In this document: piece after piece, positions 40,426 to 51,218 of the stretch
Position numbering within the stretch: the stretch's first letter is position 1
How the letters are laid out: each line of letters begins with the position of its first letter
NCBI GenBank assembly: GCA_024225395.1
Contig: JAAEMR010000236.1
Location: 1 to 64,000, forward strand
Length of the DNA: 64,000 nt
From: Gammaproteobacteria bacterium
Lineage (GTDB): Bacteria > Pseudomonadota > Gammaproteobacteria > GCA-001735895
Direction of reading: 5' to 3'
Notes under the pieces: generated by a model
What the model was told of the DNA's origin: nothing
Database searches by the model: none
What the model saw: the letters and a program-made list of their open reading frames with translations, nothing else
Made by a program: the position numbers and the translations under genes

Positions 40426-40454
40426 TTTACAATGGAATGAATATTCATTACAAT
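40426..40454 (+). promoter_or_regulatory. Predicted promoter of the gfa-oxidoreductase operon
   Basis: TTTACA (40426-40431), a 17-base spacer and TACAAT (40449-40454) form a good sigma-70 promoter. The spacer holds operator copy 1, and copy 2 covers the expected start point. The start codon of gfa is about 100 bases further on. Confidence 0.6.
40436..40449. promoter_or_regulatory. TetR operator candidate, copy 1 (gfa promoter)
   Basis: AATGAATATTCATT is a perfect 14-bp palindrome, placed between the -35 and -10 of the gfa promoter. It matches copies at 40457, 48382 and 49192. Confidence 0.7.
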
Positions 40455-40456
40455 GC

Positions 40457-40470
40457 AATGAACATTCATT
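40457..40470. promoter_or_regulatory. TetR operator candidate, copy 2 (gfa start region)
   Basis: AATGAACATTCATT, followed by CTA as in two other copies. It starts exactly 21 bases after copy 1, two helical turns, so both copies lie on the same DNA face. Confidence 0.7.
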
Positions 40471-40555: not shown

Positions 40556-41164
40556 ATGAAAAAATCGATTCATCCAGCAGTTGATGCGGGGATTAAATCA
40601 AACCCGGCTAAAAGAAGTATTTGGGGTTATATTAACAACAGGCCAAAACCGGGAGGGACTCTTTCGTGCAAGTGTGACAACAACCCGGTAGTTATCAAAA
40701 TCACTTCTCAGGCCGCGCATAACCACCTTTGTGGTTGTACTCAGTGCTGGAAACCGGAAGGAGCTTTGTTTTCCCAGGTAGCAGTTGTACCTCGAGATAA
40801 GCTCAGCGTGATTAAAAATGCCGACAAACTCAAAATTCTTGATGAAAGCGTGCCTATTCAGCGTCATGTCTGTAGTGAATGTGGTACCCATATGTTTGGT
40901 CGTGTAGAGGATGAGAGACACCATTTCTACGGTCTGGATTTTATTCATCTAGAGCTCTCAAAAGATGACGGCTGGCCCCCCATACAGTTTGCAGGATTTG
41001 TTTCCTCAATTGTTGAGTCTGGAACTGATTCGGTTGAACTGGAGGAGATTCGAACTCAAATACGAGGTCTGGGACTGGAACCTTATGATGAGTTTTCGCC
41101 ACAGTTAAATGCCTATATTGCTTCAAGGGCATCCAAATTGAGTTACAAAAATCAGGTTTATTAA
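40556..41164 (+). CDS. gfa: S-(hydroxymethyl)glutathione synthase Gfa
   Basis: This 202-residue GFA/CENP-V domain enzyme speeds condensation of formaldehyde with glutathione. Zinc ligands are all visible: C38 and C40 in SCKC, C59, C61 and C64 in CGCTQC, and C106 and C109 in CSEC. Segments such as AHNHLCGCTQCWKPEGALFSQ and FYGLDFIHLELS match Paracoccus Gfa closely. A 10-15-residue insert before the first ligand pair (about residues 18-32) is unusual. It is the first gene of an operon with two heme-copper oxidoreductase genes. Two TetR operator candidates sit on its promoter. Confidence 0.93.
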   Translation: MKKSIHPAVDAGIKSNPAKRSIWGYINNRPKPGGTLSCKCDNNPVVIKITSQAAHNHLCGCTQCWKPEGALFSQVAVVPRDKLSVIKNADKLKILDESVPIQRHVCSECGTHMFGRVEDERHHFYGLDFIHLELSKDDGWPPIQFAGFVSSIVESGTDSVELEEIRTQIRGLGLEPYDEFSPQLNAYIASRASKLSYKNQVY

Positions 41165-41187: not shown

Positions 41188-41742
41188 ATGATTGAATTTT
41201 TATATACAAACGCATGGGGAGCATTTATAGCTCTATTGATGTTCCAAATTCCTTTTCTTTTAGTCTTTTTTCATGTCGTCAATAAAAAGGCATTTGTAGA
41301 CTCGGAGCCAAGCAAAACCGATCCAGAAAAATATTCTTATTCCAGGTATGGCTGGATAGCTTTTGTAGTGGTTGCCTTTATTGTAGTCAATGCTGCCAGT
41401 ATTAAATACATGCCAACGATAGTAGAGGCTAATGCATCTACCTCACAGGATGTGAAGAATGTGAGTGTTACTGCCCGCTCATGGTTTTTTGAATTCAGTG
41501 AAATGGAATACAAGGTCGGTCAGACAGTTCGGTTCCAGGCTAAAAGTGTAGACACGGTGCATAGTTTTGCCCTGTTTCACCCGGATGGCAGTCAGTTGTT
41601 TACCTTGATGCTAGTGCCTGGAGCAGGTACGGAGAGTGCTGTGGTGCATACCTTTACGGAGCCAGGGGAATACACGGTCCGTTGCCTTGAGTATTGCGGT
41701 GTAGCGCACCACGCAATGAAAAATACTTTAACTGTACTTTAA
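41188..41742 (+). CDS. CuA subunit II of an atypical heme-copper oxidoreductase
   Basis: This 184-residue protein has two membrane segments (about residues 10-31 and 54-72) and a C-terminal periplasmic cupredoxin domain. All CuA ligands are present: H125 in TVHSFAL, and C166, E168, C170, H174 and M177 in CLEYCGVAHHAM. It is shorter than normal COX2 (over 220) and has no cytochrome c domain. It would pass electrons from a cytochrome c to the catalytic subunit encoded 26 bases downstream. It lies 23 bases after gfa. The compact CuA plus single large subunit resembles the sNOR-like pairs known from nitrifiers (inference). Confidence 0.88.
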   Translation: MIEFLYTNAWGAFIALLMFQIPFLLVFFHVVNKKAFVDSEPSKTDPEKYSYSRYGWIAFVVVAFIVVNAASIKYMPTIVEANASTSQDVKNVSVTARSWFFEFSEMEYKVGQTVRFQAKSVDTVHSFALFHPDGSQLFTLMLVPGAGTESAVVHTFTEPGEYTVRCLEYCGVAHHAMKNTLTVL

Positions 41743-41768
41743 ATAACTAATAGTTCGGGGAGAATACA

Positions 41769-43268
41769 ATGTCAGCTGCAATAAATATTATTGAGAAAGT
41801 CCCATTTTTTGGGGGCATGTTTAAAGTTGAAGATAATGAGTTAAATCCAGTTAACGCATGGCCATCGCTGATGGCAATGACAGCCTTTGTCTGGTTTGCC
41901 ATTGCCGCCGTTTTGGGTGTCTCCATGCCAACGATCCAGTTCCTGGATTTAGGGCCGAACTGGTATTATAAAAATATCACACTGCATGGTGCTGCAATGG
42001 CTTTTCCATTTGCTTTTCAGCTAATGGTTGCGATGAGCCTGCACCGGGCGGGGGCCTGTTTAGGTAAAAGAGCCGATGACCTGTTTGTGTCACTTTTTTA
42101 TATATTCATGAATGTCGGTGCACTGCTGCTGACCCTCGCCGTGTTATCTGGATTTCATGTGACCTATACGGTCATGTTCCCATTACCCGTCGTAGGTGTT
42201 GGCAATGGCCAGTGGAGTATGGCCACACTGGTTCTTGGATTTAGTGGTATCGCTTTAGTGCTTACCTCGATGATTTTTATCTATCCCATCAAAATTCTCA
42301 AAATGTCATTTTTTGAGAAAACAGATGATACCCTGCAGGTTGCAGAGCGTACGTTGAAAGACCCGGGAATGGTAGGCATGATAATGGGCGTGCTGATTCT
42401 GCTTGTGACTGGAACTCCATTAATGATTGTTGCGGGTTCTTTGCTGCTGCATTTGTATGGAATTTTTCCTGCAGCATGGATTGGCTGGGCTGCGGATCCT
42501 GTGGTGTTTGAATTTGTTTTCTATATCTTTGCACATAATTTGATGGAAGCCATGGCCATTATGATTATTGGTGCCGTGTACTCGACCCTGCCGCTTTGTC
42601 TGGCTGACGGTGCCCGAAAGTTATACAGCGATAAAATTGCAATGATAGCCTTGTGGATTTTACTAGTCACTTCGCTGACCTCATTCTTCCATCACTTTTA
42701 CACCATGTATCCAGCTCTACCTTCAACCTTTGCCTATCATGGAAATATCATGAGTTATGCCACAGCAGTTGGTGCAGCCCTGACGATATTTACCATTCTC
42801 GCAACGATCTGGAAACACGGCATAATTGCAACGCCAGCGTTATTTCTGATTTTAGGTGGTTTTGTCATGTATATCCTGGATGGAGTCTCGGCGATTGTGA
42901 TCAGTAATGTTGCGTGGAATTTTAAATTACACGGTACCATGTGGGCTGGCGGACATGCCATGGTGGTGCTGATAGCAATCAGTGCACTGTGGATGGGCAT
43001 GCTTTATTACCATTATCCACTAATGACCAATCGTACTATCGACGATAGCCTCGCCAGATCGAGTATTAAATATCTGTTCATTTCTTATCTGGGTTTATTT
43101 TATAGCTTTATGGCAGCTGGTGCCGCCGGTATGCCACGCAGAAACGGAGACTGGGAAGGTGACTGGTTTATCTATGGTGGATTTATATTTTTCTTTGGCA
43201 TGATGATGTTATATGCTTTTGTGCTGTACTTCCTTAGCCTGACCAGGTCCAAAGCAATTGATTATTAA
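41769..43268 (+). CDS. Catalytic subunit I of an atypical heme-copper oxidoreductase (oxidase or NO reductase)
   Basis: This 499-residue membrane protein has about 12 helices. H73 (TLHGAAM) is a low-spin heme ligand. H256 with H308-H309 are binuclear-metal ligands. H388 and H396 (HGTMWAGGHAM) align with the helix X pattern, H396 being the high-spin heme ligand. Where oxidases have a second low-spin His two residues on, this protein has M398. Helix VI reads AHNLMEA: no HPEVY cross-linked Tyr, but a Glu at H+4 as in NO reductases. It could be an NO reductase or an unusual oxidase. It is co-transcribed with gfa and the CuA subunit. Confidence 0.9.
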   Translation: MSAAINIIEKVPFFGGMFKVEDNELNPVNAWPSLMAMTAFVWFAIAAVLGVSMPTIQFLDLGPNWYYKNITLHGAAMAFPFAFQLMVAMSLHRAGACLGKRADDLFVSLFYIFMNVGALLLTLAVLSGFHVTYTVMFPLPVVGVGNGQWSMATLVLGFSGIALVLTSMIFIYPIKILKMSFFEKTDDTLQVAERTLKDPGMVGMIMGVLILLVTGTPLMIVAGSLLLHLYGIFPAAWIGWAADPVVFEFVFYIFAHNLMEAMAIMIIGAVYSTLPLCLADGARKLYSDKIAMIALWILLVTSLTSFFHHFYTMYPALPSTFAYHGNIMSYATAVGAALTIFTILATIWKHGIIATPALFLILGGFVMYILDGVSAIVISNVAWNFKLHGTMWAGGHAMVVLIAISALWMGMLYYHYPLMTNRTIDDSLARSSIKYLFISYLGLFYSFMAAGAAGMPRRNGDWEGDWFIYGGFIFFFGMMMLYAFVLYFLSLTRSKAIDY

Positions 43269-43559
43269 CGGTTAAATATTTTGACCTGACGTGAGCAGCG
43301 ATGCCGGATAATGTTTGTTATTTGAACAACCTTCCGGAGCGCTGTTCATCAGGGACAGGATAAAACCCATTCACAGAAGTAAATCGTCTTTTCCTCTTAC
43401 TTTCCAGTCATGCTTATGCAATGGTTACCTGTTAACCTTAGGATACAGTCAAAACAGGATTTTCAGGAATTAACATTAGTTTGAAAATCGCTCACTGGAT
43501 TTATCTGAAGTCCACATCTTAAGTCTGGGCTTACCAGCGATGGCAGAATTTTAGAAAAG
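43269..43559. other. Intergenic region after the oxidoreductase operon
   Basis: No ORF of note and no clear terminator is visible. It separates the operon from a small convergent hypothetical gene. Confidence 0.5.
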
Positions 43560-43790
43560 CTAAGCGATAATGAAAGCCTCCTCCTGGAAGGTAGATTTAT
43601 CATGGTATCTTTTGGTGCTCTCTTCTTTTAAAAACTTTAATTCTTTTTCCAGGAAAGCTATCTCTTCGAGCATATACTCAGGTTTTTTTGGTAATCCATA
43701 ATCATCTAAAAGTTGTATAAGGTTTTTAAGGTTATTTGAAACTCTTCTTTCTTCGGCTTCAAGGCTATAATATTTCGGTACATTATTCAT
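43560..43790 (-). CDS. Small hypothetical coiled-coil protein
   Basis: This 76-residue, highly charged and helical protein (EEIAFLEKELKFLKEESTK, a likely coiled coil at about residues 42-60) has GGAAAAG before its ATG. I do not recognise a family. It is isolated between the oxidoreductase operon and a gene-poor stretch. It could be real; its composition and ribosome-binding site support that moderately. Confidence 0.45.
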   Translation of the reverse strand: MNNVPKYYSLEAEERRVSNNLKNLIQLLDDYGLPKKPEYMLEEIAFLEKELKFLKEESTKRYHDKSTFQEEAFIIA

Positions 43791-44978
43791 AGCTTTTCCA
43801 AACTAACTAGATTTAAACTTCGATGTATATAATATAGAACTACATACAGGAATTAACTGTGAATCCAGTTCAATTTTCACTGTGACAAATTTGACAAAAA
43901 TAATGGAAAAGATACCCAGTTAAGTAGCCATCATCAATCCACCGGTACCGGCGCCAGCAGCAACCCGAGTTACCTGTCAGAAGTGCTGGCATACGGGTGA
44001 AATAGTCTTCAATGGCCGTTAACGCAGCCGACCACCCGCACTACCGATCGAATCAAGTTATTATCAGCAGTATTAATGATGACGCGCACCCCTTTAGAAA
44101 TGATTCACAATATTTTGACCCGGGTTTCACACCACTTTCACAGGTCGAGGTATTTAATATATTTCCTTGTAACCAACGCTGACCGTCGGGGCAGTTATCC
44201 CCGGCATATAGCAGGAATGAGTAAAATGATTGTATCGAAACAAACTGTTTTCAGTTCTCAGGACCTACGTCTGATTAGCATCTACTGTAGCATGCTGTTG
44301 TTGACACCCTTAGTGGTGATGTTTCTGGCTTCAGCCATTTCCAGTCTCTGAGAATGGCAAATGTCTGATAACCCTCTTGAGAAGCCGGTGTGGTAGCGCG
44401 CTATTACACCGGTGGACCAATTGTCCAGGTCGACCACCCATAATCTGTTCGCCCATCCTTATCACGAAGTACTGAGCTATTAAAATCTATCATGACCAGC
44501 ATCAATATGCATATACTTAATGACCAGCATTAATCGAGTAAAACACGATAGTGGACTAAGTGACGTTGAGTTTTGCTGTCAGTATGGTCTGCACATCAAA
44601 ATTTATTACTGGCATCGCATTTTCATGCGAACTCAAAGAAGCAGATAAATTAGCTGAAGTTATGGTCTCTAATTTTGTAGCAGTCTGAAGTTTAGGTGAT
44701 TATCCAGGTAAAGAGATTAAATTCCCACGATATACAGCTGTCCGAAACTTTACTGAAACCTGACTTTTACCGAACGTTTTGGGTAAATCTGAGGTACTCC
44801 GAAAGGTGATGATTGTGACAGTTGATATTTTATCGCGGGGCAGGGTAGCAATTTGGCTAACTCTTCATGACGGACTGCTACTGGCACTTTTCAGTCTAAA
44901 AGCTACTATCGGGTAATTTCTGCTTATATAGAAATATTCGATTTCCCATTTTAACTGCCGATGTTTCTGGCAAGCTTG
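43791..44978. other. Gene-poor stretch, probably decayed DNA
   Basis: About 1.2 kb lies between two units of the proposed regulon. Only short frames are open: 91 codons at 44076-44351 with a hydrophobic end, and 34 codons at 44584-44688. None has a recognisable domain. Minus-strand bits such as VAAGAGTGGLMMAT near 43930-43980 look protein-like, but the frame breaks at once. A CCGGTGT/ACACCGG stem lies at 44384-44411. It is probably one or more eroded genes. Confidence 0.5.
44384..44411. repeat. GC-rich inverted repeat
   Basis: CCGGTGTGGTAGCG pairs with CGCTATTACACCGG (two G-T wobbles in RNA). It is isolated in the gene-poor stretch. Confidence 0.45.
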
Positions 44979-47315
44979 TCAAACCTCTTTTAAGCTTGAA
45001 GAGTGCTGACCGGCCAGAGTATCTGGTGCCTCATCAGGAACGAGTTGCCGGGATGAATTCCAGATGACTAACAAACTGCTGGATGACATTGCCAGAGCGG
45101 CAAAAAGTGGATTGAGCATGCCAGAAACGGCAACCGGAATAGCGATAGCATTATATAGCAGTGCCCATACCAGATTTTGCCGGATGCGGTGCCGAATTGA
45201 TTGAAGTATCTCAAAGGTTACAAAGATGCGATCCAGCCGGTTACCGGGGATGATCACATCGGCTGCATCGGCGGCCAATGCGGTCGGTGCTCCGAATGCA
45301 ATACCAAGATCAGCTTCCGCGAGTGAGGGGGCATCGTTACTGCCGTCGCCAATCATCACGACAACCCCCTTATTTTTTAACTGTCTGATCACCGTGGCTT
45401 TGCCTTCCGGTGGTATGCCGGAAAATACATTATCAAATTTTTCTCTGAATGAGCCGGCTGTTTCTGCGCCGGTCAGCAACACGACGTGAGCCTGCTTACG
45501 CAGCCTGTCAACCACCTGGCTCCAGCCGGGTCGGGGTTGATCCTCTGTGGTAATCATGCCGTAAATTTTTCCATCCCAGCCCACATAGGAATTTACGGCC
45601 TGATCTGGACCGGGTGTGATCGGTATTTCCGGGATATCCCAGCCCAGTATGGTAAAAAGTGATTTACAGCCAACCGCAACAGAATGATTCTCAACCTGGG
45701 CTATGGCTCCTTTTCCGGGATAGTTTTTGATATTTTTTGCCTCGTATCGAGAATCAAGCCGGGCAATGGCTTCAGCAATCGGGTGTGGTGACAGCCTTTC
45801 GACCGCAGCGGCATATTCTATGATTTCAGGTGGCCCGACTACATTGCTGACGGACATGTTTGCAGTTGATAAAATACCGGTTTTGTCGATTGCAATCGTA
45901 TCAATCTGCTGGGCTTTTTCAAAAGCATCGGCGCTGGCGATGATGATACCGTTTTTTAGTGCAACACTGACCCCGATAGCAGAGGTCAGAGGGATGGCTA
46001 AACCGAAAGTACAGGGGCAGGAGACTATCAACGTAGCCATCCCCGCGAGCAATGCCGAGCCGAACGAGGCACCCCCGCTGTATAACCAGCAACTGACTCC
46101 GATGGCCAGAATCAGGACGGTGGGAACAAACAGGCGCGCCACCCTGTCACCCATACCGAGTGTGCCGGAGTTGGAACTTTGTGCATTCCATAATACGCGA
46201 GCCAGGTTGTCGAGTTGACTTGTGATGACGTGTCCGACTTCAATTTCAACTGTGCCTTCGACGTTGCGGGTACCACCCAGGATGCGCTCGCCAGCACTGC
46301 GGGTGACCGGGAAGGGTTCACCGGTCATCAGTGATTCATCGACTGCGCACTGCCCTGCAACAATGATACCGTCTGCCGGGATCATTTCTCCCTGGTGAAC
46401 AAAGATGTGTTCGGCCGGATGCAGTTCATCGATAGATATTATTTGAAGATCACCATCCCTGCGTACGCGAACAGTAGGAATCCATGCATCCATGATGCTG
46501 GCAAGGGCTTCAGTGGCTTTTTCCCGGGCTTCGCGTTCTAAATACCGGCCAATAGTCACCACGGCAATTATCGTGGCAGCGACATCGAAGTACAGTTCAA
46601 GTGTACCGATGATCATCTGCCCAATACTGAAACCATAAGCTGCAAGAATAGCAATCGCTAGCAAATTATCCATGTTTAGTACACCTGTACGAAGGCCCAC
46701 CCAGGCACCTCGGAAAATAGGTGCTGCGACATAGAAAATAAGTATGCTGGTAAGAAAAAGCAGCACCATCGGCACTGCTTCGTAAACAAGCCAGTGGACT
46801 GGTTCCAGTTCGACGATATCAATCAAACCGAGATGGATCGGGTAATAGAAAGCCAGATACATCATCATTATGGTTGCTGCCAGGCTTTCGGCAGTCACCA
46901 GGCGCAGCATTGGCATGCGATAGTCGTAATCTGGAGCCTTGTCCTGGCTGAAGCGGGCATGGTAGCCGGAACGGCTGATTAATCCGGGTAGTTCAGCTTC
47001 GTTAATCTGCTCCGGGTCGTAGATAATTTTTACCGCAGCGGTAGCGTAATTGGTTTTTGCAGCAACAATGCCTTTAACCTGAAGTGCGTGCCTCTCAATC
47101 AATAATTCACATGAAGAACAATGCATTCCGTCGATTCTAAGGTAAGCTTCGTTTCCTTCCGGCTCGACTACGGTTTCAGGAATTGTTGAGGCTGGTTCGG
47201 GTAGCGTGATAGAGCCGAAATGCAGGAATACCTCGCGACAGCCAATACAGCAGAATACATGACCGTCCTGTTGCAATTCTGCTGTAGCTGGAAGACCGCA
47301 AAGCTTACAATCCAT
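44979..47315 (-). CDS. CcoI/CtpA-like copper-translocating P-type ATPase
   Basis: The start chosen is ATG 47315; a TTG 18 bases upstream is also open. The 778-residue P1B-ATPase has an N-terminal Cys-rich domain (CKLCGLP, FCCIGC) and an HMA domain (GMHCSSC). Eight membrane helices, CPC in helix 6 (SCPCTFGLA), TGE (MTGEPFPV), an SPHP motif and MIGDGSNDAPSL follow. The phosphorylation site reads DKTGILS, not the near-universal DKTGTLT. This N-terminal layout is that of ATPases feeding copper to heme-copper oxidases from the periplasmic side. It lies 36 bases downstream of ctaB. Confidence 0.9.
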   Translation of the reverse strand: MDCKLCGLPATAELQQDGHVFCCIGCREVFLHFGSITLPEPASTIPETVVEPEGNEAYLRIDGMHCSSCELLIERHALQVKGIVAAKTNYATAAVKIIYDPEQINEAELPGLISRSGYHARFSQDKAPDYDYRMPMLRLVTAESLAATIMMMYLAFYYPIHLGLIDIVELEPVHWLVYEAVPMVLLFLTSILIFYVAAPIFRGAWVGLRTGVLNMDNLLAIAILAAYGFSIGQMIIGTLELYFDVAATIIAVVTIGRYLEREAREKATEALASIMDAWIPTVRVRRDGDLQIISIDELHPAEHIFVHQGEMIPADGIIVAGQCAVDESLMTGEPFPVTRSAGERILGGTRNVEGTVEIEVGHVITSQLDNLARVLWNAQSSNSGTLGMGDRVARLFVPTVLILAIGVSCWLYSGGASFGSALLAGMATLIVSCPCTFGLAIPLTSAIGVSVALKNGIIIASADAFEKAQQIDTIAIDKTGILSTANMSVSNVVGPPEIIEYAAAVERLSPHPIAEAIARLDSRYEAKNIKNYPGKGAIAQVENHSVAVGCKSLFTILGWDIPEIPITPGPDQAVNSYVGWDGKIYGMITTEDQPRPGWSQVVDRLRKQAHVVLLTGAETAGSFREKFDNVFSGIPPEGKATVIRQLKNKGVVVMIGDGSNDAPSLAEADLGIAFGAPTALAADAADVIIPGNRLDRIFVTFEILQSIRHRIRQNLVWALLYNAIAIPVAVSGMLNPLFAALAMSSSSLLVIWNSSRQLVPDEAPDTLAGQHSSSLKEV

Positions 47316-47351
47316 TCGACTATAACTATTCAACGATGTACTTAATTACAA

Positions 47352-48260
47352 TCATAACCGGATGATAATTCGTGCATAGTGGTCGAGAAGTAAAAAGCCG
47401 AACAACATGCTGAGGTAAAATATCGAGTATCCAAAAGTAGGCCCTGCGTGGCTGTCTCCATCTTCCCTGAAAAGATGGATTGCATGCCAGAGGAATCCGA
47501 TGCCCAGAGACAGCGCTCCAGATAGATAAATGATACCGCTCATCTGGATGGTGAATGGCAGTATACTGATGATCACCAGCATGATGGTATAGAGAAGGAC
47601 TTGTAACTTGGTGAATGCAATACCATGGGTAACCGGCAACATCGGCACCTCGGCTTTTGCGTATTCATCTCTGCGTTTTATGGCTAGTGCCCAGAAATGT
47701 GGAGGGGTCCAGATGAATATAATCAGGAATAATAGTAGTGCCTCGGTGTGAATTTCACCAGTGACTGCTGTCCAGCCCAGCAGTGGTGGTGTAGCCCCGG
47801 CTGCTCCGCCTAGTACGATGTTGTAGGGTGTAGCCGGTTTAAGGAAAACGGTATAGATAATCGCATAACCGATCATCGATATAAAAGTGAGCAGTGCAGT
47901 CAGCAAATTAACCTGGGTGACGAGTGCTATCATTGATGCTGTAGCCAGCAGAAGTGCAAAGCTGATAACTAGTAGCGGGGAAACCTGGTGTTGCGGTAAT
48001 GGCCGGTTTTGGGTCCGTGCCATAATGGCATCTATCCTCCGGTCAACCCAGTGATTGGCTGCAGCACCAGCCGCCGCCGCCAGGCCAATCCCCAAAATTG
48101 CAAAAAAGATGGTGCTCCAGGGTGGGCTGGTTGCCGAAGCCAGTAGCATTCCAGCAACTGCAGTAAAGACAATCAGTAAAACTACCCTGGGCTTACATAA
48201 AGCCAGATAAGTTTTCCAGGTAACATTGGCAATATTTGCTTCAACGACAGCTTCGTTCAT
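47352..48260 (-). CDS. ctaB: Protoheme IX farnesyltransferase (heme O synthase)
   Basis: This 302-residue UbiA-family prenyltransferase attaches a farnesyl group to heme b to give heme o. It has about nine membrane helices and the first Asp-rich motif NHWVDRRIDAIMARTQNRPL, with FIWTPPHFWALAIKRRDEY typical of CtaB. The ribosome-binding site is GGAGGA before ATG 48260. It is followed by the copper ATPase gene. A TetR operator candidate lies about 120 bases upstream. No ctaA (heme A synthase) is in the window, so the nearby oxidoreductase may use heme o (inference). Confidence 0.94.
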   Translation of the reverse strand: MNEAVVEANIANVTWKTYLALCKPRVVLLIVFTAVAGMLLASATSPPWSTIFFAILGIGLAAAAGAAANHWVDRRIDAIMARTQNRPLPQHQVSPLLVISFALLLATASMIALVTQVNLLTALLTFISMIGYAIIYTVFLKPATPYNIVLGGAAGATPPLLGWTAVTGEIHTEALLLFLIIFIWTPPHFWALAIKRRDEYAKAEVPMLPVTHGIAFTKLQVLLYTIMLVIISILPFTIQMSGIIYLSGALSLGIGFLWHAIHLFREDGDSHAGPTFGYSIFYLSMLFGFLLLDHYARIIIRL

Positions 48261-48381: not shown

Positions 48382-48395
48382 AATGAATATTCATT
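48382..48395. promoter_or_regulatory. TetR operator candidate, copy 3 (ctaB upstream)
   Basis: AATGAATATTCATT followed by CTA lies in the 217 bases between tetR and ctaB. I could not see a good -35/-10 pair around it on the minus strand. Confidence 0.6.
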
Positions 48396-48477: not shown

Positions 48478-49110
48478 TTACTCGTTGGAGGCTAGTTTCT
48501 GCGGCACGGAATCATCCTCGATTTTCATACCTTTCCAGGTCGCATCAATAAGTTGATCGTAAAGCTCTGGAAGTGGTCTATCGATGAGTCCATCGAGGCG
48601 CATATGGATTAATCGGAATGCGCCACCAAAAATGACTGAAGCCGCTACCAGGCAGTCGTAAGACTGAATTTCACCGCTATCCATACCGAGCTGCACCATG
48701 TCACGTATTTTCTGGAAAGGTTCCGCTGAACAGATCGGAGGTTTACTGGAGATGAATTCAGTGTGATTGGCGTGCAGAATAAAAGCGATGATTTCACAGC
48801 GGGTCTCAGTGTATTCGAATAGCAGCTCGATGATGTGATTACATTTTTCGATGATCGTCAGGTCCTGAGCAATAACAGAATCGACCATTTCATTCATTTC
48901 CACCAGCAGACGTTCGTGCAATGCCTTGGCGATACCTTCCTTGCCGCCAAAATGTTTATAAATTGAACCGATACTGACATCGGCAAGTTTCTGTACATCG
49001 TGTACCGAGACATTGTGATACCCATGGTTGACAAACAGCTTAAGTGCAGCAGTCAGGATACGGCAATCCATTGGCTTCGGATCGGGATCGGGGCGTGATA
49101 GATAGGGCAT
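48478..49110 (-). CDS. TetR/AcrR family regulator, probable local repressor
   Basis: This 210-residue protein has an N-terminal TetR helix-turn-helix (about residues 17-62: ILTAALKLFVNHGYHNVSVH, then VSIGSIYKHFGGKEGIAKAL). The C-terminal ligand domain is about 145 residues and contains several cysteines (such as ETRCEII and PPICSAEP) that could react with an aldehyde or NO. It is divergent from adhC; the shared 142-base region holds an operator candidate. Identical palindromes at gfa and ctaB make it the likely repressor of all these units (inference). Confidence 0.9.
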   Translation of the reverse strand: MPYLSRPDPDPKPMDCRILTAALKLFVNHGYHNVSVHDVQKLADVSIGSIYKHFGGKEGIAKALHERLLVEMNEMVDSVIAQDLTIIEKCNHIIELLFEYTETRCEIIAFILHANHTEFISSKPPICSAEPFQKIRDMVQLGMDSGEIQSYDCLVAASVIFGGAFRLIHMRLDGLIDRPLPELYDQLIDATWKGMKIEDDSVPQKLASNE

Positions 49111-49183: not shown

Positions 49184-49212
49184 TTGACAAAAATGAACAT
49201 TCATTCTAAATT
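49184..49212 (+). promoter_or_regulatory. Predicted adhC promoter with operator in the spacer
   Basis: TTGACA (49184-49189), a 17-base spacer and TAAATT (49207-49212). The 14-bp palindrome fills most of the spacer, the typical place for a TetR repressor to block polymerase. The start codon is 40 bases downstream of the -10. Confidence 0.7.
49192..49205. promoter_or_regulatory. TetR operator candidate, copy 4 (tetR/adhC region)
   Basis: AATGAACATTCATT followed by CTA, the same sequence as copy 2 at the gfa promoter. It lies in the divergent tetR-adhC region. Confidence 0.75.
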
Positions 49213-49252: not shown

Positions 49253-50362
49253 ATGAAAGCAAAAGCAGCTGTGGCCTGGGAGCCAAAAAAACCACTCGCA
49301 ATTGAAATGATCGATGTGGAAGGACCAAGGGAAGGCGAGGTACTATTAAAAGTCGTGGCTTCAGGTGTTTGTCATACCGATGCCTTTACCTTGTCCGGAG
49401 ATGACCCCGAGGGGGCTTTTCCCTGTGTATTAGGCCATGAAGGTGGTTGTGAGGTTGTTGAATGCGGGCCCGGGGTAAAAAATTTAAAACCGGGTGACCA
49501 CGTGATTCCACTGTATATTCCGGAGTGTGGTGAATGTGAGTATTGTCGCTCACCAAAAACAAACTTGTGTCAGTCAATAGCGGCAACGGTCTGGACGGGT
49601 TATATGCCGGATAACACTCGTCGTTTTTCGATGAACGGTTCACCCATTTATCACTACATGGGGTGTTCTACATTTTCAGAATACACCGTGGTACCTGAAA
49701 TTGCCCTGGCAAAGATCAATCCCGAAGCTCCGTTGGATAAAGCCTGCCTGTTAGGGTGTGGAGTGACTACCGGGATAGGTGCGGTTTTAAATACTGCCAA
49801 GGTTGAAGCGGGTTCTACTGTAGCCGTGTTCGGCCTGGGTGGTATTGGTCTGTCCTGTATCCAGGGTGCCGTCATGGCCAAAGCAGAACGCATTATTGCG
49901 ATTGATGTAAACCCGGATAAGTTTGAATTTGCACGCCAGCTTGGTGCCACCGATTTTGTTAATCCAAAAGAAATTGAGGGGTCGTTTGTCGAGTACATGC
50001 AAGACACCTACAACGGGGGGCCGGATTACTCATTTGAATGTATCGGTAATGTACATGTCATGCGCGATGCTCTTGAGTGCACCCACATGGGCTGGGGGGT
50101 ATCAACGGTAATCGGTGTGGCTGGTGCCGGTCAGGAAATTGCTACTCGGCCGTTCAACCTGGTTGTAGGTCGAACCTGGAAAGGCACGGCGTTTGGTGGA
50201 GTCAAGGGTCGTACCGAATTGCCGGGTTATGTCGATCGATACATGAACGGACAGATAGAGTTGGACATGATGGTGACTCACACCATGCCAATAGAAGAAA
50301 TAAATACAGCCTTCGACCTGATGCATGAAGGTAAAAGTATTCGTTCAGTGGTTACCTTTTGA
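49253..50362 (+). CDS. adhC: S-(hydroxymethyl)glutathione dehydrogenase / class III alcohol dehydrogenase (GSNO reductase)
   Basis: This 369-residue zinc MDR dehydrogenase oxidises S-hydroxymethylglutathione to S-formylglutathione. Enzymes of this class also reduce S-nitrosoglutathione. Catalytic zinc residues C40 and H62-E63 (GHEGG), structural zinc cysteines C92, C95, C98 and C106, and the NAD fold GLGGIGLS are visible. The class III pattern is clear ([18 protein letters not shown]). It is followed after 10 bases by fghA. An operator candidate sits inside its promoter. Confidence 0.96.
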
Positions 50363-50372
50363 GAGTGTCGTG

Positions 50373-51218
50373 ATGTCCAGTTTGACTAAAATTGAAACAA
50401 TCAAGGAGTTTGGTGGTTATCTAAACCGTTACCAGCACCAGTCTGATATTTGCCAGTGCCAAATGACTTTTTCTGTCTACCTGCCACCGCAGGCGCAACG
50501 CGAAAAGGTGCCTGTTGTGTACTGGTTATCCGGCCTGACCTGTACCGATGACAACGTGCGTACAAAAGCGGGAGCGCAACGTTATGCGGCTGAGCTAGGC
50601 ATTGCCCTGGTGATGCCGGATACAAGCCCTCGAGGTGAAAATGTCTCTGATGAACCTGAGCGTTACGATCTTGGTAAGGGAGCTGGATTTTATGTTAATG
50701 CGACCGTTGAACCCTGGGCGCAGCACTACCAGATGTACGATTATGTGACACGGGAATTACCGGAGCTTGTCGAAGCTGAATTACCCATTGTTCCCGGGGT
50801 AAAATCAATCACCGGGCATTCGATGGGTGGGCATGGCGCACTAATCTGTGGATTAAGGGAAAGCGGAGCTTATCGTTCGGTTTCAGCATTTTCGCCAATC
50901 TGTCATCCGACTATCTGTGGCTGGGGGGAAGGATGCTTCGGAGCCTATCTTGGTAATGACCAGAAAGACTGGAAGCAGTATGACGCTACCGAACTGGTTA
51001 AAAATGGAGCAGAGCCGATCCCGTTATTGATTGACCAGGGAACGGCGGATGAATTTCTTGCCGACCAGTTGCATCCGAAAGCATTGCTCGATGCCTGTTC
51101 CGAACGTGATTTTCCGATTGAGCTCCGGATGCAGGATGGCTACGACCACAGCTATCACTTCATCTCAACATTTATTGGTGAACATCTTGCTTATCACGCA
51201 AAAGCCCTGAAGGGCTGA
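50373..51218 (+). CDS. fghA: S-formylglutathione hydrolase
   Basis: The start chosen is ATG 50373 with GAGAGTG upstream; the frame opens 48 bases earlier inside adhC. The 281-residue alpha/beta hydrolase has nucleophile S150 in TGHSMGGHGAL, oxyanion region WLSGLTCTDDNV, the acid in QGTADEFL and the His in YDHSYHF. It hydrolyses S-formylglutathione to formate and glutathione. With gfa and adhC it completes the glutathione-dependent formaldehyde oxidation route. Formate dehydrogenase genes are not in the window. Confidence 0.96.
   Translation: MSSLTKIETIKEFGGYLNRYQHQSDICQCQMTFSVYLPPQAQREKVPVVYWLSGLTCTDDNVRTKAGAQRYAAELGIALVMPDTSPRGENVSDEPERYDLGKGAGFYVNATVEPWAQHYQMYDYVTRELPELVEAELPIVPGVKSITGHSMGGHGALICGLRESGAYRSVSAFSPICHPTICGWGEGCFGAYLGNDQKDWKQYDATELVKNGAEPIPLLIDQGTADEFLADQLHPKALLDACSERDFPIELRMQDGYDHSYHFISTFIGEHLAYHAKALKG

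Follow-up and report, generated by a model that had tools for sequence, protein, structure and literature searches.

A two-subunit heme-copper oxidoreductase (HCO) encoded in the window, the 64,000-nucleotide stretch of a gammaproteobacterial contig analysed here, represents a distinct, new family of the heme-copper superfamily, a conclusion we hold with very high confidence. The HCO genes lie in a regulon that in the window's genome (G000) comprises formaldehyde disposal, the HCO itself and copper and heme maturation genes. Judged from this regulon and from the gene neighbourhood, the likeliest role of the enzyme is the O2-dependent oxidation of methanethiol, or a close methyl compound, to formaldehyde by a membrane-bound complex that stands in for MtoX (SBP56), a methanethiol oxidase that is periplasmic and soluble, a reading to which we give a probability of roughly 0.38.

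Subunits, active-site residues and distribution of the family

A check of the open reading frames placed the two subunits in adjoining frames on the same strand, just where the earlier note had them:

41188..41742, + strand: HCO subunit II, 184 aa, with a cupredoxin domain and two N-terminal hydrophobic segments
41769..43268, + strand: HCO subunit I, 499 aa, recognised by its PF00115 match, a 12-helix model and alignment

Subunit I matches PF00115 (COX1) at 138.8 bits (E=3e-40, cut-off 34.8 bits); COX1 is the sole Pfam domain reported for it, and the SBP56 domain PF05694 is absent from the same scan. Its best named-family profile in NCBIfam is CoxA/CtaD, at 82 bits against a 671-bit cut-off, and all NCBIfam oxidase cut-offs lie far above its scores; annotation based on KEGG or on cut-offs would label it a cytochrome c oxidase or leave it without a name. 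In the AF2 model (pLDDT 75, pTM 0.82), built from 15 sequences and without metals, the protein takes the 12-helix fold of a heme-copper subunit I; pLDDT falls below 50 around H388 and H73, and the model is used for fold only. Foldseek and VIA comparisons likewise liken the model to heme-copper subunit I (VIA Z about 30, in a ranking of mostly A-type chains, absence from which rules out no family). The CuA site of subunit II is complete, as had been noted, with H125 and CLEYCGVAHHAM, and its ligands are invariant in the 15 family members compared.

Twelve diverse family members were compared in one alignment with 29 heme-copper proteins from outside the family (A, B-like, C, c/qNOR, sNOR and eNOR-like). 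H73, H256, H308, H309, H388, H396, M398 and E260 all stand at the places the earlier note gave them. At the low-spin heme H73 is kept and its partner histidine in helix X is replaced by M398, methionine in 12/12 family rows versus histidine in 29/29 of the others; all genome-contig members spanning helix X read H-[A/T]-M, no clade member keeps H-x-H, and no other histidine occupies the low-spin position. The methionine singled out earlier is thus clade-wide. A lone sequencing error or a pseudogene is ruled out by this conservation and by the open frames. Five of the six conserved histidines of heme-copper subunit I are therefore present, the second low-spin histidine being Met398 throughout, and despite this the fold, the CuA site and other features still place the family as a variant within the superfamily. 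In the alignment H396 takes the high-spin heme position, H256, H308 and H309 take the second-metal positions, and the helix-XI arginine pair is kept. H388 does not ligate heme; its counterpart in the alignment is the histidine eight residues before the high-spin heme ligand (HDT/HNT motif), and an equivalent histidine is present in other heme-copper families too. Read off the alignment, Met398 would ligate the low-spin heme, and it is reasonable to expect that the potential of this heme would be raised by His/Met ligation, as the earlier note predicted.

The second fixed change concerns the active-site tyrosine. At this position, helix VI H+4, tyrosine is found in all 12 A rows and in the B-like row, and the family has glutamate (E260) in 12/12 rows, which bears out both the NO reductase-like glutamate and the missing HPEVY tyrosine recorded before. 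Helix VII also lacks the tyrosine that cbb3 oxidases carry six residues ahead of HH (3/3 C rows); Ser302 takes its place in 12/12. The A-type D- and K-channel markers Glu(H+2) and Lys are replaced by Leu258 and Thr339, Tyr271 and Thr339 match B-type K-channel positions, and Thr332 stands at the position of the second cNOR glutamate in the helix VIII region. Loss of tyrosine, fixation of glutamate and methionine and retention of the metal sites together suggest a changed chemistry. C97, H92 and N326 of subunit I are family-invariant and differ in the other aligned heme-copper families, which makes them candidates for substrate or redox roles.

A scan of genome contigs found 17 loci at 54-98% identity, in sponge-symbiont, Saanich Inlet and ETNP Gammaproteobacteria MAGs, SAR324, a deltaproteobacterial MAG, a Halieaceae MAG and Rhodobacteraceae, the last including an isolate, Maritimibacter fusiformis HY14 (L031). 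Among 369 genomes of the class a profile search returned five members above 750 bits, the window's included, and then a gap from 752 down to 57 bits; in 398 genomes sampled across the phylum the HCO is present in the window's own genome only. A tblastn search of plasmids with subunit I brought up nothing closer than distant A-type relatives, at about 25%. All family members group on a single branch with 100/100 support in a tree of 41 sequences (LG+C20, PMSF). Its stem measures 2.1 changes per site, and A, C, c/qNOR, sNOR and the B/eNOR-like group all fall outside it; the stems are long and the deep branch order is unsure, and separateness alone is claimed. An earlier heme-copper collection discarded sequences lacking any of the six histidines (PMC3084760), and a family with five would have been filtered out because all six were required.

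Four other, ordinary oxidases are encoded in G000, together with a cNOR and an eNOR-like protein. Three divergent heme-copper or NOR-type genes lie within about 14 kb on its contig C149: the cNOR (L005); L006, which has glutamine at the tyrosine position, the eNOR signature, and a CuA-type open reading frame nearby; and L008 (G000:C149:47093-48322), a heme-copper-like protein of 494 aa in which H-Y-H of helix X and the equivalents of H73 and H256 are retained and the helix-VII histidine pair is lost (V, Y).

Gene neighbourhood and regulators

The following features surround the HCO genes:

40436..40449: palindrome AATGAATATTCATT upstream of gfa-HCO, a candidate TetR operator
40457..40470: second palindrome, AATGAACATTCATT, upstream of gfa-HCO
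40556..41164, + strand: gfa, glutathione-dependent formaldehyde-activating enzyme (NF003829, above cut-off)
44979..47333, - strand: copper-type P1B ATPase (HMA and E1-E2 ATPase), a conserved HCO partner
47352..48260, - strand: UbiA-family prenyltransferase by family match, a recurrent neighbour
48382..48395: palindrome AATGAATATTCATT upstream of cyoE-copA
48478..49110, - strand: TetR-family regulator, whose 60% identical ortholog adjoins mtoX in G007
49192..49205: palindrome AATGAACATTCATT in the tetR/frmA divergent promoter
49253..50362, + strand: frmA/adhC, S-(hydroxymethyl)glutathione dehydrogenase (class III ADH)
50325..51218, + strand: fghA, S-formylglutathione hydrolase (PF00756), operon mate of frmA in relatives

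The gfa gene ends 23 bp upstream of subunit II and is probably in one operon with it; the prenyltransferase is probably cyoE/ctaB (heme O synthase). The frmA product shares 85-86% identity with the one encoded behind mtoX in G004 and G007, two genomes of the same genus that are without the HCO. The first ATG of fghA overlaps frmA, and its true start probably lies just after 50362. Behind the HCO, positions 43269-44978 form 1.7 kb with no open reading frame longer than 91 aa; the near relative G001 (L107) has open reading frames between the copper ATPase and the next genes.

Within the stretches seen, the copper ATPase accompanies the HCO at 16/18 loci, gfa at 10/18, frmA at 9/18 and fghA at 5/18, and the ATPase is also found with the HCO in G049, G367 and G119. 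Formaldehyde genes occur with it in Gammaproteobacteria, SAR324 (L035), G049 and Maritimibacter (L031); the stretches seen of the distant members L027, L028, L030 and G367 hold none. The order is shuffled: L025, for instance, reads SafE-gfa-frmA-fghA-II-I-copA, L031 has II-I-gfa following iclR, and in SAR324 L035 II-I-copA is divergent from fghA and frmA. Such shuffling speaks for functional linkage and against inheritance as a single block. The G119 island (L100/L104) combines the HCO with mtoX (SBP56 by Pfam) and with SCO, a MauG-SCO fusion, formate dehydrogenase and formylmethanofuran-dehydrogenase-type genes, these latter named by sequence character. It also holds OsmC and a PAS kinase/FixJ-like regulator, and OsmC and a kinase/regulator lie near the HCO of G367 (L099) too.

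Four copies of the palindromic pattern AATGAAYRTTCATT are present in the whole of G000 (4.45 Mb), every one inside the HCO cluster, and the reversed-pattern control is absent from that genome; in the window 0.09 copies are expected and four observed, a number reached by 0/100 shuffles. G001 has three copies genome-wide, all in the equivalent cluster. Three copies each are also present in G004 and G007, where they precede mtoX-SCO/MauG-SCO, frmA-fghA, and gfa followed by formate-dehydrogenase genes. In relatives (L155, L157, L177) the palindrome stands before gfa followed by genes for an NAD-dependent formate dehydrogenase, and these copies suggest a TetR regulon spanning methanethiol to CO2. 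By its position, the TetR protein probably reads the palindrome. Even with two mismatches the palindrome was not found in L022-L025, L028, L030-L032, L035, G049 or G367, so that the evidence for TetR and its operator reaches no further than the window's family and a few relatives. Genomes without HCO and mtoX (G008, G015, G021, G044, G054) have TetR orthologs too, which rules out a private regulator of either gene; some of these orthologs (G044, G008) lie near formaldehyde/formate genes with the motif, and the protein is therefore best read as a C1 regulator, whose signal may be formaldehyde rather than methanethiol.

The Rhodobacteraceae have another, unrelated regulator. An IclR gene lies directly upstream of the HCO in L031 and L032, and among 72,556 plasmid records the best match of the L031 protein is SPO_RS21175 (35.9% identity, 8e-39), which in Ruegeria pomeroyi is directly upstream of mtoX-SCO-peroxidase-frmA; the second is a Phaeobacter IclR gene divergent from an SBP56 gene. 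IclR proteins are numerous, the identities are 32-36% and the search covered plasmid records; the match beside mtoX is a second regulatory line toward methanethiol that is supportive but not proof. The R. pomeroyi mtoX operon is induced by DMSP, by MMPA and most, about 14-fold, by methanethiol (PMC5739008).

SBP56 itself was not found in 18 of the 21 HCO-bearing genomes, many of them incomplete MAGs, so that the regulon there is without another recognised source of formaldehyde. One of the 18 is G000, and MtoX is thereby ruled out as a direct partner in the window's genome. The other three (G119, G242 and G367) have both proteins. This absence is by itself weak evidence because SBP56 is uncommon anyway, being present in 4/24 relatives without the HCO, and with both proteins in three genomes a general exclusion of mtoX and HCO cannot be claimed.

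A possible methanethiol oxidase and its rivals

On the simplest reading of the regulon, the HCO provides what in other genomes comes from MtoX. The four ordinary oxidases that G000 also encodes count in favour of this. In the mechanism we propose, a periplasmic cytochrome c would exchange electrons with CuA of subunit II, and the His/Met low-spin heme (H73/M398) would connect CuA to the high-spin heme (H396). Facing the latter, the second metal would be held by three histidines and probably E260, and could be copper or, as in cNOR, non-heme iron. The heme-metal site would bind O2. The His-Tyr cofactor gives the fourth electron for full O2 reduction, and without it the reaction might halt at two-electron-activated oxygen; loss of the tyrosine would fit such an intermediate and methyl oxygenation. 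The activated oxygen would attack the methyl group of CH3SH, giving HO-CH2-SH, which would break down to formaldehyde and H2S, and formaldehyde would pass through Gfa-FrmA-FghA to formate dehydrogenase, the gene set being switched on by TetR in Gammaproteobacteria or IclR in Rhodobacteraceae. Against methanethiol as substrate stands the fact that we know of no heme-copper enzyme that oxidises an organic substrate, O2 and NO being, to our knowledge, the only accepted substrates. We propose only tentatively that a C1-methyl oxidase of heme-copper fold, whose low-spin heme has His/Met ligands and whose second metal is bound by Glu, adds a third chemistry to the superfamily and an unrecognised methanethiol sink in marine bacteria that lack mtoX.

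Of the two readings in the earlier note, which had left gene context aside, the sNOR-like NO reductase is rejected and the unusual oxidase may still apply. The HCO could be a terminal oxidase that reduces O2 to water with cytochrome c electrons, is induced with formaldehyde disposal, and sustains respiration when methanethiol, H2S or formaldehyde poison ordinary heme-copper oxidases. The CuA subunit, the intact heme and metal ligands and the residues Y271 and T339 at B-type K-channel positions are all compatible with this, its co-occurrence with mtoX in three genomes would be understandable, and a formaldehyde signal for TetR would explain the same regulation. However, the redox tyrosine of O2 reductases is missing at both of its places (E260, S302), G004 and G007 carry mtoX yet do without the HCO, and in most HCO genomes the regulon has no known source of poison, and we consider this role rather unlikely. 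Less probable still is a new CuA-type NO reductase that turns two NO into N2O at a heme/non-heme-metal site with glutamate as in cNOR, beside an FrmA acting as S-nitrosoglutathione reductase. Class III ADH is indeed known as a GSNO reductase as well and E260 aligns with the glutamate of cNOR/qNOR, but the family falls outside the c/qNOR, sNOR and eNOR-like branches, Thr332 replaces the second cNOR glutamate, and G000 already has two proteins of the NOR kind. Absence of the tyrosine does distinguish NO reductases from O2 reductases (PMC3084760). The operator regulon of relatives, on the other hand, contains methanethiol oxidase, gfa and fghA, handlers of formaldehyde and not of GSNO, and this gene context points away from NO metabolism. 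As for a non-catalytic or sensor-like heme-copper relic retained beside formaldehyde genes, the sequence is divergent and function is assigned from sequence and context; yet conservation extends to every heme, metal and CuA ligand and to the helix-XI arginine pair, and several lineages keep the HCO with its own copper and heme maturation genes, which makes a relic highly improbable.

Heme-copper enzymes are among the best-studied enzymes, and a clade with methionine fixed at the low-spin heme and glutamate at the tyrosine site tests the roles of those residues. If the HCO does oxidise methanethiol, it would help to explain how marine bacteria without MtoX degrade this product of DMSP, and the ocean sulfur cycle may thus have an enzyme that has so far been overlooked. 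Methanethiol is reported to be turned into sulfide, by an unidentified route, even in Ruegeria lacuscaerulensis, a species without mtoX, and some methanethiol activity persists in R. pomeroyi after mutation of mtoX (PMC7157515).

Comparison with known systems

Like the new family, sNOR, an Asn-type NO reductase with CuA known from ammonia oxidisers and other organisms, has a subunit I of about 500 aa and a CuA subunit and is without the active-site tyrosine, and it is among the top-scoring outgroups of the family profile. It differs in its helix motifs, which are HxxxN (helix VI, with asparagine in 8/8 sNOR rows versus Glu260), HHLLMD (helix VII) and H-F-H (helix X), and in forming a separate 100/100 clade. 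Asparagine in place of tyrosine is the sNOR signature (PMC8756737). A CuA-type protein without the tyrosine from an ammonia-oxidiser-type genome group, found via amoA-family matches (L095), and its relatives read FFGHVVIN, HHLLMD and GHFHF. Active-site residue, helix X and tree thus rule out sNOR identity, and the sNOR-like assignment made earlier is not upheld.

Glutamine, aspartate and asparagine stand in place of tyrosine in eNOR, gNOR and CuANOR (bNOR), respectively (PMC8756737). None of these matches the glutamate found in 12/12 family rows, and the aligned eNOR-like protein has glutamine at helix VI H+4; from gNOR and bNOR the family is set apart by this residue alone. The cNOR/qNOR enzymes share the glutamate aligned with E260 but lie on a distant branch, and the HCO has neither a NorC-type cytochrome c partner, nor their second glutamate, nor their low-spin histidine. 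With A-type oxidases (aa3/caa3) the family has in common the fold, the GMPRR motif and a CuA subunit II with two N-terminal hydrophobic segments, whereas those enzymes have HPEVY and H-F-H where it has HNLME and H-A-M, and it is without their K-channel lysine and without a subunit III nearby. MtoX resembles the HCO in setting, through the TetR regulon of sister genomes, an IclR neighbour in Rhodobacteraceae and formaldehyde partners, but is of unrelated fold, a soluble copper protein with MauG/SCO partners (PMC5739008) in contrast to a 12-helix heme-copper protein.
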